DNA of 33,366 nucleotides from an uncultured Succiniclasticum sp. (GTDB lineage Bacteria; Bacillota; Negativicutes; Acidaminococcales; Acidaminococcaceae): NCBI GenBank assembly GCA_905235335.1, contig CAJOKZ010000007.1:1-33366 (forward strand), given 5' to 3'. The position numbers were made by a program, and so were the translations under genes. The notes below the pieces were generated by a model. It ran no database searches. It was given only the letters and a program-made list of their open reading frames with translations, and was not told where the DNA came from. The first letter of the stretch is position 1. Each line of letters starts with the position of its first letter. Positions 13,384 to 30,741 of the stretch are shown here, one piece after another.

Positions 13384-13457
13384 GTCACGGAAAAAACATA
13401 ATTTTTATGTAGCATACACTTGGAGTCCGGGAGAAATTTAAACAGGAATGTAGGACA

Positions 13458-13487
13458 TTCGGATTTTTACCGTAAGTGTGTTATAAT
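13458..13487 (+). promoter_or_regulatory. Possible promoter of the glycine-zipper protein gene
   Basis: A perfect TATAAT at 13482-13487, with a weak TTCGGA 18 bases upstream; the start codon is 44 bases downstream. Confidence 0.45.
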
Positions 13488-13530
13488 AAATCTGATTAGA
13501 AAGAACTTGTCCGATAGAAGGAGGATACCG

Positions 13531-14943
13531 ATGAAAAGATTTTTTGCGTTGGTTCTTTCAATCTGCCTGTTATGCAGTGTCGCTTTTGCGGAAGGGGAAA
13601 CGGCGTCGGATGCCGGCAGCGGTGAAAACAAATCCGGATCCCTGAATCTGAGCTCTTTACCGGAACGCAAAACCACCGGTTCGCTGGCGGACGTGCTGAC
13701 CGGGCAGGATGCGGACCGTATCCAGAAGGCGATTTCCGATTCCCTTGTCAGCTATGCGGAAAAAGAGGAATCCATGGCGCCGGATGTTTGGACAGAAAAA
13801 AGATTGCAGGAAAAGATGGAGAACGCATCTAAGGATAGGATTACAGAGATCGCCCAGGAGGTTATGGATACGATCCGGGAGACGGAAGAACAGAACAGAT
13901 CGTTGGCAGAAGCGATGCAGAAGGGTGAAAGCAAAAAAAGCTGGCTGGACGGGCAGCTGAAAAAATATATTACGAAGGCTGTGGAACTGACGGGTGATGC
14001 GCCGAAGGTGAATGGCAGCGGACGCAACAGTGGGTTCACCATTGCGGGAAAGAACTGGAAAGGCCAGGCCCTGAGCGAACGGGAAGCCCGGCTGATGCGG
14101 GACGATTTGGAAAATGACCGGGATAGCGGCATAAAAACCGCGGTAGCAGTGGGACTGGTGCTGGCGGCGGACAGCGGCCGGGTATCCATCATGAACCAGG
14201 CGGCACCCCGGCAGCTTACCATGATAGCCATCAATGCGGTTGAAGAAGCCAAGACGGTATTGAAAGTGAAAAAGGGCGTCATTACAGGAAAAGAGGGCGT
14301 AGCCAAACTGACCGATACGGCCATGACATCCATGATCGGCATGCTGGCAGGCTTTGATTACAAGCAAATTGGTTTTTTGGCAGGTACTGCTGCCGGAACG
14401 GCGGCCGGTGGGGCGTTGGAAGGAGCAACCGGAGGGCTCAGCCTGGGTTCCATTACCGTCAACGGTGCATTGCTGGGTGCGTATTTTGGTGAAAAGATTG
14501 GAAGCCGTATCGGGGAATCACTCAATGCGACTATGGATGAAAAGATGAAGGCCCGCATCATCACGGAATTCGAAAGCTTTTTGGGCGGAACGGTGGTGAC
14601 CGTACTGAACATCCATGATGTGCAGAAAGCCCTGGACAGCATGGAGAACGAAAGTGATGTCAAACTGACTGAAGAAGCGGCGAAAGTTGTGAACAAAGCG
14701 AAAGACAGAGCCGTTTCTCTGGGATCCGGCATCAGTGATACCATGAAATCCTGGGGCAGCAGGGCCGGTTCCGCTTTCGGGTCTTGGAAAAATGCCACAG
14801 GGACAACAATCAGATCCTGGGGCAGCAGCATATCGGATTTCTTTGGGGAAGCCGGTGAAAGTATCGGAAAAAGCTGGAACGGGGTGGTTCAAAAGGTAAA
14901 GGGCACGGTTAGTTTGGTGCCGGTTTTACCGGGAAACGCGTAA
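13531..14943 (+). CDS. Secreted glycine-zipper protein of unknown function
   Basis: A 470-residue protein I do not recognise. A Sec signal peptide is clear (MKRFFALVLSICLLCSVAFA, cleavage probably after residue 20). Residues 21-200 are charged and helical. Residues about 282-330 form a glycine/alanine-rich stretch (GTAAGTAAGGALEGATGG, then GALLGAYFGEKIGSRIG) with the small-residue spacing of a glycine zipper, suited to membrane insertion or tight helix packing. From about 400 on, the pattern S-W recurs with W408, W419 and W430 exactly 11 residues apart, then W449, as in amphipathic 11-residue repeats. The start follows an AAGGAGG site; 37 upstream in-frame codons are not supported. It is a single gene with its own terminator. 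A surface, pore-forming or envelope-associated role is possible but unproven. Confidence 0.8.
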   Translation: MKRFFALVLSICLLCSVAFAEGETASDAGSGENKSGSLNLSSLPERKTTGSLADVLTGQDADRIQKAISDSLVSYAEKEESMAPDVWTEKRLQEKMENASKDRITEIAQEVMDTIRETEEQNRSLAEAMQKGESKKSWLDGQLKKYITKAVELTGDAPKVNGSGRNSGFTIAGKNWKGQALSEREARLMRDDLENDRDSGIKTAVAVGLVLAADSGRVSIMNQAAPRQLTMIAINAVEEAKTVLKVKKGVITGKEGVAKLTDTAMTSMIGMLAGFDYKQIGFLAGTAAGTAAGGALEGATGGLSLGSITVNGALLGAYFGEKIGSRIGESLNATMDEKMKARIITEFESFLGGTVVTVLNIHDVQKALDSMENESDVKLTEEAAKVVNKAKDRAVSLGSGISDTMKSWGSRAGSAFGSWKNATGTTIRSWGSSISDFFGEAGESIGKSWNGVVQKVKGTVSLVPVLPGNA

Positions 14944-15009
14944 GCAGACTGTTCGATTATGTGCGAACGGAACTATTTGTGAGTTTGTGAATTTGAAGAA
15001 TGTTTGAGC

Positions 15010-15057
15010 GGCCTTGGGACGATAGCTGATAATATTGTCACGGGGCCCTGTTTTTTT
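15010..15057 (+). terminator. Terminator of the glycine-zipper protein gene
   Basis: Bases 15010-15020 pair with 15037-15047 (ten of eleven, two of them G-U), followed after three bases by T7. Confidence 0.65.
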
Positions 15058-15061
15058 GTGT

Positions 15062-15067
15062 TATAAT
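15062..15067 (+). promoter_or_regulatory. Isolated TATAAT before the interleaved-repeat region
   Basis: A perfect -10 hexamer immediately after the previous terminator. The only good -35 (TTGTCA at 15035-15040) is 21 bases away, longer than usual. A palindrome (TTTCAATTGAAA, 15067-15078) overlaps the presumed start point. Confidence 0.3.
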
Positions 15068-15080
15068 TTCAATTGAAAAT

Positions 15081-15235
15081 GTCAGGGACCGGCTCACACA
15101 GTGGTATTGGATATGGGAGTTTTTGCAGTATTGCGCCGGTCTGACTTATCGTTAGAAACTCCCAGCGTTAACAGATGGAAAAATGATACGGCAGACCAGA
15201 GCTGTTTCTGCAGATACGGATACCCGTATAATTTT
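15081..15235 (+). ncRNA. Candidate structured RNA with pseudoknot topology
   Basis: Two inverted repeats interleave. A is 15087-15093 and A' 15135-15141 (perfect 7 bp, extendable by four more pairs past a two-base bulge to 15081-15145). B is 15114-15122 and B' 15156-15164 (perfect 9 bp). The order A-B-A'-B' is that of an H-type pseudoknot. Downstream, a 6-bp hairpin (15214-15219 with 15224-15229) followed by T5 could end the transcript. The region matches no RNA family I can name, and it has no convincing gene. It could be a small RNA or the leader of trmO, whose start is at 15303. Structure is inferred from complementarity only. Confidence 0.4.
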
Positions 15236-15302
15236 TGCTGTTTGGTTTTTGTGTGCCGAAAACAATTTTAATTTGCTGATAATATGAAAAGAGGTTGATC
15301 CT

Positions 15303-15989
15303 GTGGCTGGAGCATTATTTCCCGTAAAAATCATCGGGCATATCCGAACCGATTTTTCCAGCAAGTTCGGTGTGCCCCGGCAGAGCGGTATCGTGGACGC
15401 ACTGGAAGCGAGGATTGAATTTGAAAAAGAATTTGCGCAGCCGGAAGCTTTTCGGGGTCTGGAAGGCTTTTCCCATCTTTGGATCATATGGCAGTTTTCA
15501 GAAGCCTTGCGGAATAACTGGTCCGCTACGGTGCGCCCTCCGCGCCTGGGAGGCAATACAAGGGTAGGGGTGTTTGCCACCCGTTCCCCGTTCCGCCCCA
15601 ATGCCATCGGCCTGTCGTCGGTTAAAATTCAAAAGATTGAATGGGATACGCCGAAAGGACCGGTACTCCATGTCCGCGGCGCAGATTTGATGGACGGCAC
15701 GCCAATACTGGATATAAAACCGTATCTGGCTTATGCGGATTCCCATCCGGAGGCAGTGGACGGATTTGCGGAACAAACCGCTTTTCAAAAGTTGAACGTA
15801 CATTTTCCGGAGCCTTTGCTGGCGAAGATTCCCATGGATAAGAGAGACGCTTTGCTTGGTGTACTGGGAGAAAATCCGGCACCGCAGTATCAGAAAGACC
15901 CGGAACGCATATACGGGTTCGGATTTGCGGGAAAAGAAGTACGTTTCCGTGTAAAGGACAATGACCTGACGGTGGTTGAAGTGGAATGA
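15303..15989 (+). CDS. trmO: tRNA (N6-threonylcarbamoyladenosine(37)-N6)-methyltransferase TrmO
   Basis: SAM-dependent enzyme that methylates t6A37 in threonine tRNAs. The 228-residue protein shows the UPF0066/YaeB fold signatures: IGHIRTDFSSKFGVPRQ near the N-terminus, EGFSHLWIIWQF, the hallmark ATRSPFRPNAIGLSSV, and GADLMDGTPILDIKPYL. The C-terminal extension with a DPERIYGF-like segment is also usual in bacterial TrmO. The start codon is a GTG at 15303 preceded by AGAGG; no ATG offers a better start. The 313 bases before it contain the interleaved-repeat region. Confidence 0.92.
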   Translation: MAGALFPVKIIGHIRTDFSSKFGVPRQSGIVDALEARIEFEKEFAQPEAFRGLEGFSHLWIIWQFSEALRNNWSATVRPPRLGGNTRVGVFATRSPFRPNAIGLSSVKIQKIEWDTPKGPVLHVRGADLMDGTPILDIKPYLAYADSHPEAVDGFAEQTAFQKLNVHFPEPLLAKIPMDKRDALLGVLGENPAPQYQKDPERIYGFGFAGKEVRFRVKDNDLTVVEVE

Positions 15990-25207: not shown

Positions 25208-25828
25208 TTGTTAGATTTTTCCACATTGTTATTTCGCGCTCCGGCGCTGTTGATCGCATTGACGATACATGAATACGCCCATGCCTGTGTTTCGGACAGT
25301 CTGGGCGATCCGACTCCGGAACTGCAGGGGAGGCTGACGCTGAACCCGCTGGCCCATCTGGATATTGTTGGCACACTGATGCTGGTGCTCTGCGGGTTTG
25401 GCTGGGCCAAACCGGTTGAGATCGATCCCCGGTATTATACTGATTACCGGTCGGGCTGTCTGAAGGTCTCCGCTGCCGGGCCCGGCGCTAATCTTTTCAT
25501 GTGCTTCCTGGCGGTCCTGATCATGACGGCTCGGGGCAGCATGGGTATGTCGAGCGGCTTTGTGAATCAGTTCCTGTACTGGCTTATGCTTTATAATGTT
25601 TGGTTTGCCTTTTTTAATCTGATACCGATCCCGCCATTGGATGGGTCAAGGATTTTGTCGACTTTTCTTGATTACGAAACAGCATATAAGTATGAAAACT
25701 TTGTAGGACGCTATGGATTTCTTGTCCTGATTGTCATTGTTTACAGCGGAATCTCCAATATGATCATCGGACCGTTGGCGTCCTGGTTCCTGCGTCTGTG
25801 TTACGCGGTTTCGGGAATAATTTTTTAA
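25208..25828 (+). CDS. Site-2 protease family (M50) membrane metalloprotease
   Basis: A 206-residue integral membrane protein of the small YwhC-like M50 group. The zinc motif HEYAH (H21, E22, H25) lies in the first membrane segment, and the second conserved motif is IPIPPLDGSRIL around residues 140-150, giving the third ligand aspartate. Four to five hydrophobic segments are visible. Its substrate is unknown. It starts at TTG 25208 with GGGGG about ten bases upstream; the family N-terminus fits this start. It is first in an operon that continues with scpA. Confidence 0.9.
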   Translation: MLDFSTLLFRAPALLIALTIHEYAHACVSDSLGDPTPELQGRLTLNPLAHLDIVGTLMLVLCGFGWAKPVEIDPRYYTDYRSGCLKVSAAGPGANLFMCFLAVLIMTARGSMGMSSGFVNQFLYWLMLYNVWFAFFNLIPIPPLDGSRILSTFLDYETAYKYENFVGRYGFLVLIVIVYSGISNMIIGPLASWFLRLCYAVSGIIF

Positions 25829-25904
25829 AGAGGTACCCCCGTCCTGCGGCAGACAGTTTCTGCGGCTGTTATTTTAGATCGCGGGATGGAAAAGGAGGCC
25901 GGCT

Positions 25905-29537: not shown

Positions 29538-29666
29538 ATGGGCATCGTAAAAGTAAAGCAGATTCAGGTTATTGGGCATAAACAAACTATGGTAAGTTCA
29601 GGTTTTGCGAATAAATATTATCGGCAGGGTGATAACTATGGAAAAAGGATTTGTCGTAGCCATTGA
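29538..29666 (+). CDS. Possible 42-residue ORF in the gap before cmk
   Basis: ATG 29538 with AAAGGA nine bases upstream opens a 42-codon frame that overlaps the cmk start by 29 bases. The first residues, MGIVKVKQIQVIGHK, resemble the beginning of V-type ATPase subunit I proteins, but nothing beyond that continues the resemblance. It could be a decayed fragment, a coupling peptide or chance. Confidence 0.2.
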   Translation: MGIVKVKQIQVIGHKQTMVSSGFANKYYRQGDNYGKRICRSH

Positions 29667-30306
29667 CGGACCTGCAGGTGCAGGAAAAAGCACAATTGCC
29701 AAACTGGCTGCGGGGAAATTGGGTTTTGCCTATATTGATACCGGTGCTATGTATCGCGCTGTGACATGGAAGCTGCTGCAGTCAGGAGAAACGTTTTCAC
29801 CGGGGATTGCCAGCAAGATTGCCAGAGAAATCAAGATCGTATTCCGTCCGGAAAATGCAGTGAACCGCGTGTTTGTGGATAATACGGAAGTGACGGATGC
29901 AATCCGTACGGCAGCGGTCACGCGATTGGTATCCAGTGTGGCCGCCGTGCCGGACGTACGCACCGCTATGGTAAGACAGCAGCGCCGGATGGGACAGGAA
30001 GGCGGTATTGTCATAGACGGACGGGATATCGGCACAGTGGTATTTCCCCAGGCTCAGTGTAAAATTTTCCTGACGGCAACTGTCGAAGAACGGGCGCGTC
30101 GCCGCGGAAAAGAACTGGAAGCCAAAGGTGAGAAAGTCGATTATATAAAACTGCAGGATGAGATTGCCTTCCGCGACAAACAGGACAGCGAGAGGGAGGT
30201 TTCCCCGCTGCGGCAGGCAGAAGATGCTGTCTATCTGGATACATCCGACATGAGCATCGAACAGGTCACGGACAAGATATTGGATTTAGTCCGTGAAAAA
30301 CAGTAA
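29638..30306 (+). CDS. cmk: Cytidylate kinase
   Basis: Phosphorylates CMP and dCMP to the diphosphates. The 222-residue protein has the P-loop IDGPAGAGKSTIAK (9-22), LGFAYIDTGAMYRAVTW, the CMP-binding VIDGRDIGTVVFP and the RDKQDSEREVSPL segment of the family. The start is ATG 29638 behind AGGGTGAT; an in-frame TTG at 29605 is unlikely. It is the last gene of the operon that starts with the site-2 protease; in many Firmicutes cmk is followed by plsC and ispH, which are absent here. Confidence 0.95.
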   Translation: MEKGFVVAIDGPAGAGKSTIAKLAAGKLGFAYIDTGAMYRAVTWKLLQSGETFSPGIASKIAREIKIVFRPENAVNRVFVDNTEVTDAIRTAAVTRLVSSVAAVPDVRTAMVRQQRRMGQEGGIVIDGRDIGTVVFPQAQCKIFLTATVEERARRRGKELEAKGEKVDYIKLQDEIAFRDKQDSEREVSPLRQAEDAVYLDTSDMSIEQVTDKILDLVREKQ

Positions 30307-30741
30307 TTTATGTGCCCGTCTGATACCGCCTTTACATTGCGGCCGAACGCTTCGGTGCCTGATTGTCCGCATGTTCCTTCGGCACGATGCGGTGACGCCT
30401 GCGGTTTCGTTCTGCAGCCTGGCTGTTATGACAGCCTTTACCGTTCCTCCTCGCGCCCTGCGGGAGCCGGCCGCTGCGTGCAGGGGGCATCACCCCGGGC
30501 CACGATGTTCGAATTTATCTTGCATTTCCTTATGCGGCAGATGCAAAGACGGCGCAACCCCGTCACCGATTGCGATTCCACGGACTCATGCGCCTGCGGC
30601 ATCGGAACCCGGGGCTTCGCCCCTCAGACAGCCTCGCCGCGACGGCGCCTTTCGTCTCGCGGAATGACGCAATCGTTTCCGACGGGCTGCCCCTGTCTTC
30701 GCCCTGCCGCGCCAGGGAACGCATGAAAAAATCGTTCCGTC
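30307..30741. other. G+C-rich, palindrome-rich gene-free region
   Basis: About 435 bases between converging genes. It is clearly richer in G+C than its left neighbours and full of short self-complementary pieces, such as GCCGAACGCTTCGGT near 30342, GGGGCTTCGCCCC near 30614 and the 6-bp inverted repeat 30716-30721/30733-30738. Long open frames cross it on both strands (for example + strand 30293-30667 and 30310-30726), as expected from high G+C, but none has a ribosome binding site or motif. It looks like a non-coding repeat of the kind scattered between genes; copy number cannot be seen here. Confidence 0.5.

Follow-up and report, generated by a model that had tools for sequence, protein, structure and literature searches.

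Crossing complementary segments in a probable, lineage-specific trmO 5' leader of an uncultured Succiniclasticum species, most likely a fortuitous pairing

The SAM-II, preQ1-I and fluoride riboswitches are loop-to-tail (H-type) pseudoknots. The DNA upstream of trmO, the gene for the tRNA m6t6A37 methyltransferase, in an uncultured Succiniclasticum sp. resembles them in the A-B-A'-B' order of its complementary segments and in its probable location in the 5' leader of a metabolic or RNA-modification gene, whereas it differs from them in having no useful Rfam score, no conserved core and no homologues in the genus. Other described systems to which this leader can be compared are attenuators with weak 5' terminators; the signal-sensing parts of attenuators have been described as diverse and fast-evolving (PMC2965389). 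Both combine a weak hairpin and a T-run with possible competing upstream pairings, while the leader considered here shows neither synteny nor sequence conservation before trmO, and terminator-like sites are also yielded by shuffles. As for the enzyme itself, TrmO of E. coli influences attenuation of the thr operon via tRNA-Thr decoding (PMC4132733).

The DNA under study is contig CAJOKZ010000007.1 of assembly GCA_905235335.1, analysed over 33,366 nt and hereafter called the window. Comparisons were made with genome collections comprising one genome per species for the genus (n = 14), the order (n = 63) and the class (n = 380).

Gene context and layout of the leader

The locus is composed of the following elements.

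13420-14943, + strand: upstream gene; its longest ORF has 507 aa and its likely start is ATG 13531, giving 470 aa
15008-15057, + strand: strong intrinsic terminator behind the upstream gene, GGCCTTGGGACGATA...TATTGTCACGGGGCC followed by T7
15056-15067, + strand: extended -10 element TGTGTTATAAT, probable trmO promoter
15074-15260, + strand: portion of the trmO leader specific to this species, with no counterpart in any relative examined
15081-15093, + strand: 5' arm of stem A, GTCA-GG-GACCGGC
15114-15122, + strand: 5' arm of stem B, TGGGAGTTT
15135-15145, + strand: 3' arm of stem A, GCCGGTC-TGAC
15156-15164, + strand: 3' arm of stem B, AAACTCCCA
15179-15236, + strand: terminator-like 3' part, in which CCGTATAATTTTT (15224-15236) has two alternative partners
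15303-15989, + strand: trmO, with a GTG start after AAAAGAGG (Pfam TrmO_N, 4.8e-47)

No family was matched by the upstream gene in a Pfam search, and its orthologues (or fragments of them) in congeners are 80-84% identical. The C-terminus of its product (14700-14900) carries a short repeat of the SWGSSAGST/SISDFFG type (SWGSS-type), the copy number of which differs between species, with more copies in several congeners. The terminator of this gene has an MFE of -21.2 kcal/mol (z -3.65 versus shuffles) and sits where relatives have GCAGCYTGCC...GGCAGGCTGC-TTTT terminators. On the other side of the stretch, the Pfam match identifies the downstream gene as trmO, in keeping with the preliminary description of this DNA, which had placed the stretch upstream of it. 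The TATAAT reported there as lying just upstream is also present, at 15062-15067, within the extended -10 element, which a -35/-10 promoter scan did not recognise at 15056-15067. This element aligns with GTGTGATAAAATAAATTG (G051, G045) and GTGTGGTACAATAAA (G048) in the three closest species, and its surroundings can be set side by side as GTGTTATAATTTCAATTGAA in the window versus GTGTGATAAAATAAATTGAA in G051. Since the -10 context is aligned in these three species, the TATAAT at 15062 is probably the trmO promoter, and the stretch behind it would represent the trmO 5' leader. As synteny suggests, transcription would start just behind the box, directly after the terminator of the upstream gene.

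Within this leader, the four segments lie exactly at the coordinates first given for them and, ordered A-B-A'-B', show perfect Watson-Crick complementarity. Stem A consists of a 7-bp core (15087-15093 with 15135-15141), to which the pairing of GTCA (15081-15084) with TGAC (15142-15145) adds four pairs beyond a 2-nt GG bulge, for 11 bp in total, while stem B has 9 bp (15114-15122 with 15156-15164), or 12 pairs once G-U is counted. The loops measure 20, 12 and 10-14 nt, and from these lengths an H-type pseudoknot made of the two stems appears sterically possible. In the nested ensemble, the mean pairing probability is 0.72 for stem B and only 0.06 for stem A/A'; stem A is unlikely there because A prefers other partners. 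For A', an alternative partner is found at 15188-15202, with a duplex energy of -12.5 kcal/mol, and this pairing and that with A are mutually exclusive.

The small hairpin with T5 described downstream of the stems is likewise present, at 15214-15236, where CCGTATAATTTTT can pair with ATACGG (15214-15219) in front of the T5 tail; this hairpin is weak, with 6 bp of which 3 are G-C. The second partner of the same segment is AAAAATGATACGG at 15179-15191, which provides 12 pairs. Over 551 nt, 3 terminator-like sites were found, as compared with 0.8 expected from shuffles.

Chance level of the crossing helices and stability of the fold

The frequency of crossing helices was evaluated in two ways, namely by length, where crossing pairs of perfect helices (minimum 7 and 9 bp, inside 90 nt) were counted and compared with dinucleotide shuffles, and by stacking energy, with G-U pairs and small bulges allowed. 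The stems had been called hard to explain by chance, and this holds locally: in the 245-nt region such a crossing pair is present in 11 of 3000 shuffles by length, and the -39.4 kcal/mol of A/B is reached by 0 of 1000 local shuffles. It does not hold, however, across the window. Although the A/B site alone passes the length test in the real 33-kb sequence, whole-window shuffles contain a mean of 0.25 such sites (5 in 20 shuffles), and by energy each shuffled 33-kb window offers about 1.1 equally good sites (range 0 to 3). Moreover, A/B ranks second by stacking energy in the real window, where 25805-25889 is slightly better; this top crossing-helix pair is probably a chance pairing. The A/B pairing thus stands out from the AT-rich sequence around it and is ordinary for a scan of the whole window. 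When the pseudoknot test was applied to 103 trmO upstream regions, the 7/9 criterion was passed by two of them, that of the window and that of an unrelated species (L086), which is about the chance rate.

With respect to stability, the nested fold of the region is no better than that of shuffles (z -1.05), and the same applies to the MFE of the full leader (z -0.36), to the fold of the pseudoknot span (z -0.19) and to that of the opposite strand (z -0.87). The 3' part of the leader folds better than shuffles (z -2.5).

Relatives of the stretch and insertions at the leader

Of the 14 genus genomes, 10 carry the upstream gene, namely that of the window and nine more. In 8 of these nine it stands beside trmO on one contig, while G045 has the two genes on separate contigs that both end within this intergenic stretch. 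In congeners with both genes on one contig and no repeat inserted between them, the gap spans about 75-135 nt and contains a terminator, a Shine-Dalgarno sequence and mostly a TACAAT-like -10 box. No sign of stems A and B is seen in the gaps between the upstream gene and trmO of the congeners.

Searches beyond this locus covered DNA, structure and known RNA families. No DNA relatives of the stretch were detected in the 63 order genomes, the 380 class genomes, phages or plasmids, and the matches obtained in the family, order and class were only 22-43 nt in length; the longest falls where a glyoxalase-like gene begins, and the others are short and scattered. Searched against the genus and the order (63 genomes), a covariance model of 15079-15166 (stem A with its inner helix), which has a one-sequence basis and would miss diverged homologues, found the source sequence alone. 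In its own genome the stretch is single-copy, with a next best match of E 1.3, and its being a dispersed genomic repeat was rejected on this ground. The pattern GCCGGTCTGACTTATCG gave 3 matches on viral contigs, and the two that were read are both unrelated sequence without the pseudoknot. As to Rfam, the whole window contains only a tRNA at the gathering threshold, and a permissive scan of 14950-15320 returned nothing beyond snoRNA scores at chance level (15-16 bits); the stretch matched no family, which agrees with the initial remark that it fits no riboswitch or RNA class that could be named.

A lack of conservation in relatives, named beforehand among the findings that would refute a functional pseudoknot, was observed between species. 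This absence argues against an old RNA class and not against a young one. The step from pseudoknot to functional RNA is not borne out, as congeners do without the stretch, its sequence and structure are unmatched elsewhere, the z of the fold is at shuffle level and the stems are at the chance level of the window. The complementarity is real; a functional RNA feature is unsupported.

The leader position is occupied by dispersed repeats in two of the three closest relatives. In G051 (L012), a dispersed palindromic repeat lies directly behind the -10 box, with 57 copies in that genome and 19 in that of the window, and in G045 (end of L123, start of L004) the leader continues into a repeat of a second family, which has 23 copies there and at which the contig breaks. 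Because these sister species carry dispersed repeats at this site, it can be said to accept insertions. The stretch of the window shares with the genus repeats this position before trmO, whereas it differs from them in being single-copy and without significant similarity to them. Indeed, its local alignment to the genus repeats is no better than that of shuffles, and a decayed copy of these repeats was rejected accordingly. An insertion origin is therefore read from the neighbouring species, since no direct link to the known repeat families emerged. The 11-bp sequence GCTGATAATAT also flanks the species-specific stretch as an exact direct repeat (15025-15035 and 15275-15285), either by chance or as the faint trace of an insertion. 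Its interpretation as a target-site duplication was discarded, given that the loop of the upstream terminator contains the first copy and that no terminal inverted repeats were seen between the copies.

Elsewhere, the two dispersed, partly palindromic intergenic repeat families occur together at 30304-30363 (+ strand) and 30598-30710 (- strand), after a gene (29605-30306) that its sequence suggests to be cytidylate kinase-like. The first family is found in 11 of the 14 genus genomes, being missing from G050, G052 and G054, and the second has 12 copies in the genome of the window.

Readings of the leader and their implications

We regard the stretch as a lineage-specific trmO 5' leader that is most likely an old insertion or a drifted spacer and that happens to contain crossing complements. 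The approximately 185 nt that separate the promoter from the ribosome-binding site would be lineage-specific DNA, derived either from an insertion that is no longer recognisable or from spacer drift. The complements would be fortuitous and probably without selected function, and they may form transiently in the RNA. Against this reading stand the local shuffles, which almost never match A/B, the attenuator-like 3' part, with its stability and two alternative pairings near a T-run, and the negative result of the direct comparison with known repeat families.

Among functional alternatives, the most credible is an attenuator whose A' would switch between A and 15188-15202, and CCGTATAATTTTT between the two upstream ATACGG copies. 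The stretch would then be a recently evolved cis-regulatory leader, whose early-folding A/B pseudoknot would set the partner of CCGTATAATTTTT (the terminator pairing with 15214-15219 versus that with 15179-15191) and thus attenuate trmO. This is unlikely overall, even if the promoter at a conserved position, the long leader, the mutually exclusive pairings of A' and the above-shuffle stability of the 3' part are consistent with it, and even if the absence of conservation is not fatal to it because the sensing parts of attenuators are reported to evolve fast (PMC2965389). Indeed, trmO and its promoter are conserved, yet no congener retains any trace of the stretch; moreover, the terminator hairpin is weak, the whole leader is no more stable than its shuffles and A rarely pairs with A' in the nested ensemble. 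When specified further, as a young pseudoknotted leader of one lineage that attenuates trmO according to a ligand or to the tRNA-modification state, with the switch of A' between A and the downstream segment controlling the 15214-15236 hairpin, the proposal becomes quite improbable.

Still less probable is a free-standing, trans-acting small RNA of about 160 nt that would begin at the 15062 promoter and end with the T5 (15236). Promoter-like and terminator-like signals do flank the stretch, and a pseudoknot can form in its core, but it is for trmO that this promoter is conserved in relatives, and the gene has no other evident promoter, so that trmO would be silenced if all transcription ended at 15236; in addition, the terminator is weak and no genome searched holds a homologue. 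Control of trmO by a leader peptide is scarcely credible: an ORF from ATG 15079 to TGA 15144 (MSGTGSHSGIGYGSFCSIAPV) is present, it starts about 5 nt behind the expected transcript start, a translating ribosome would decide the pairing of A because the ORF spans A to A', and a link between TrmO and attenuation is known from the E. coli thr operon, but the ORF has no Shine-Dalgarno sequence, a single Thr codon and no conservation, and ORFs this short are common by chance.

All in all, a lineage-specific leader with fortuitous complements matters little as the evidence stands, and it advises caution, in that chance alone should yield about one impressive crossing-helix pair in every 33-kb window. 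Were the leader functional, it would show that a regulatory leader can emerge inside a single species, and it would represent a trmO-linked regulatory RNA, of which a non-exhaustive look at the literature gives us no other example.
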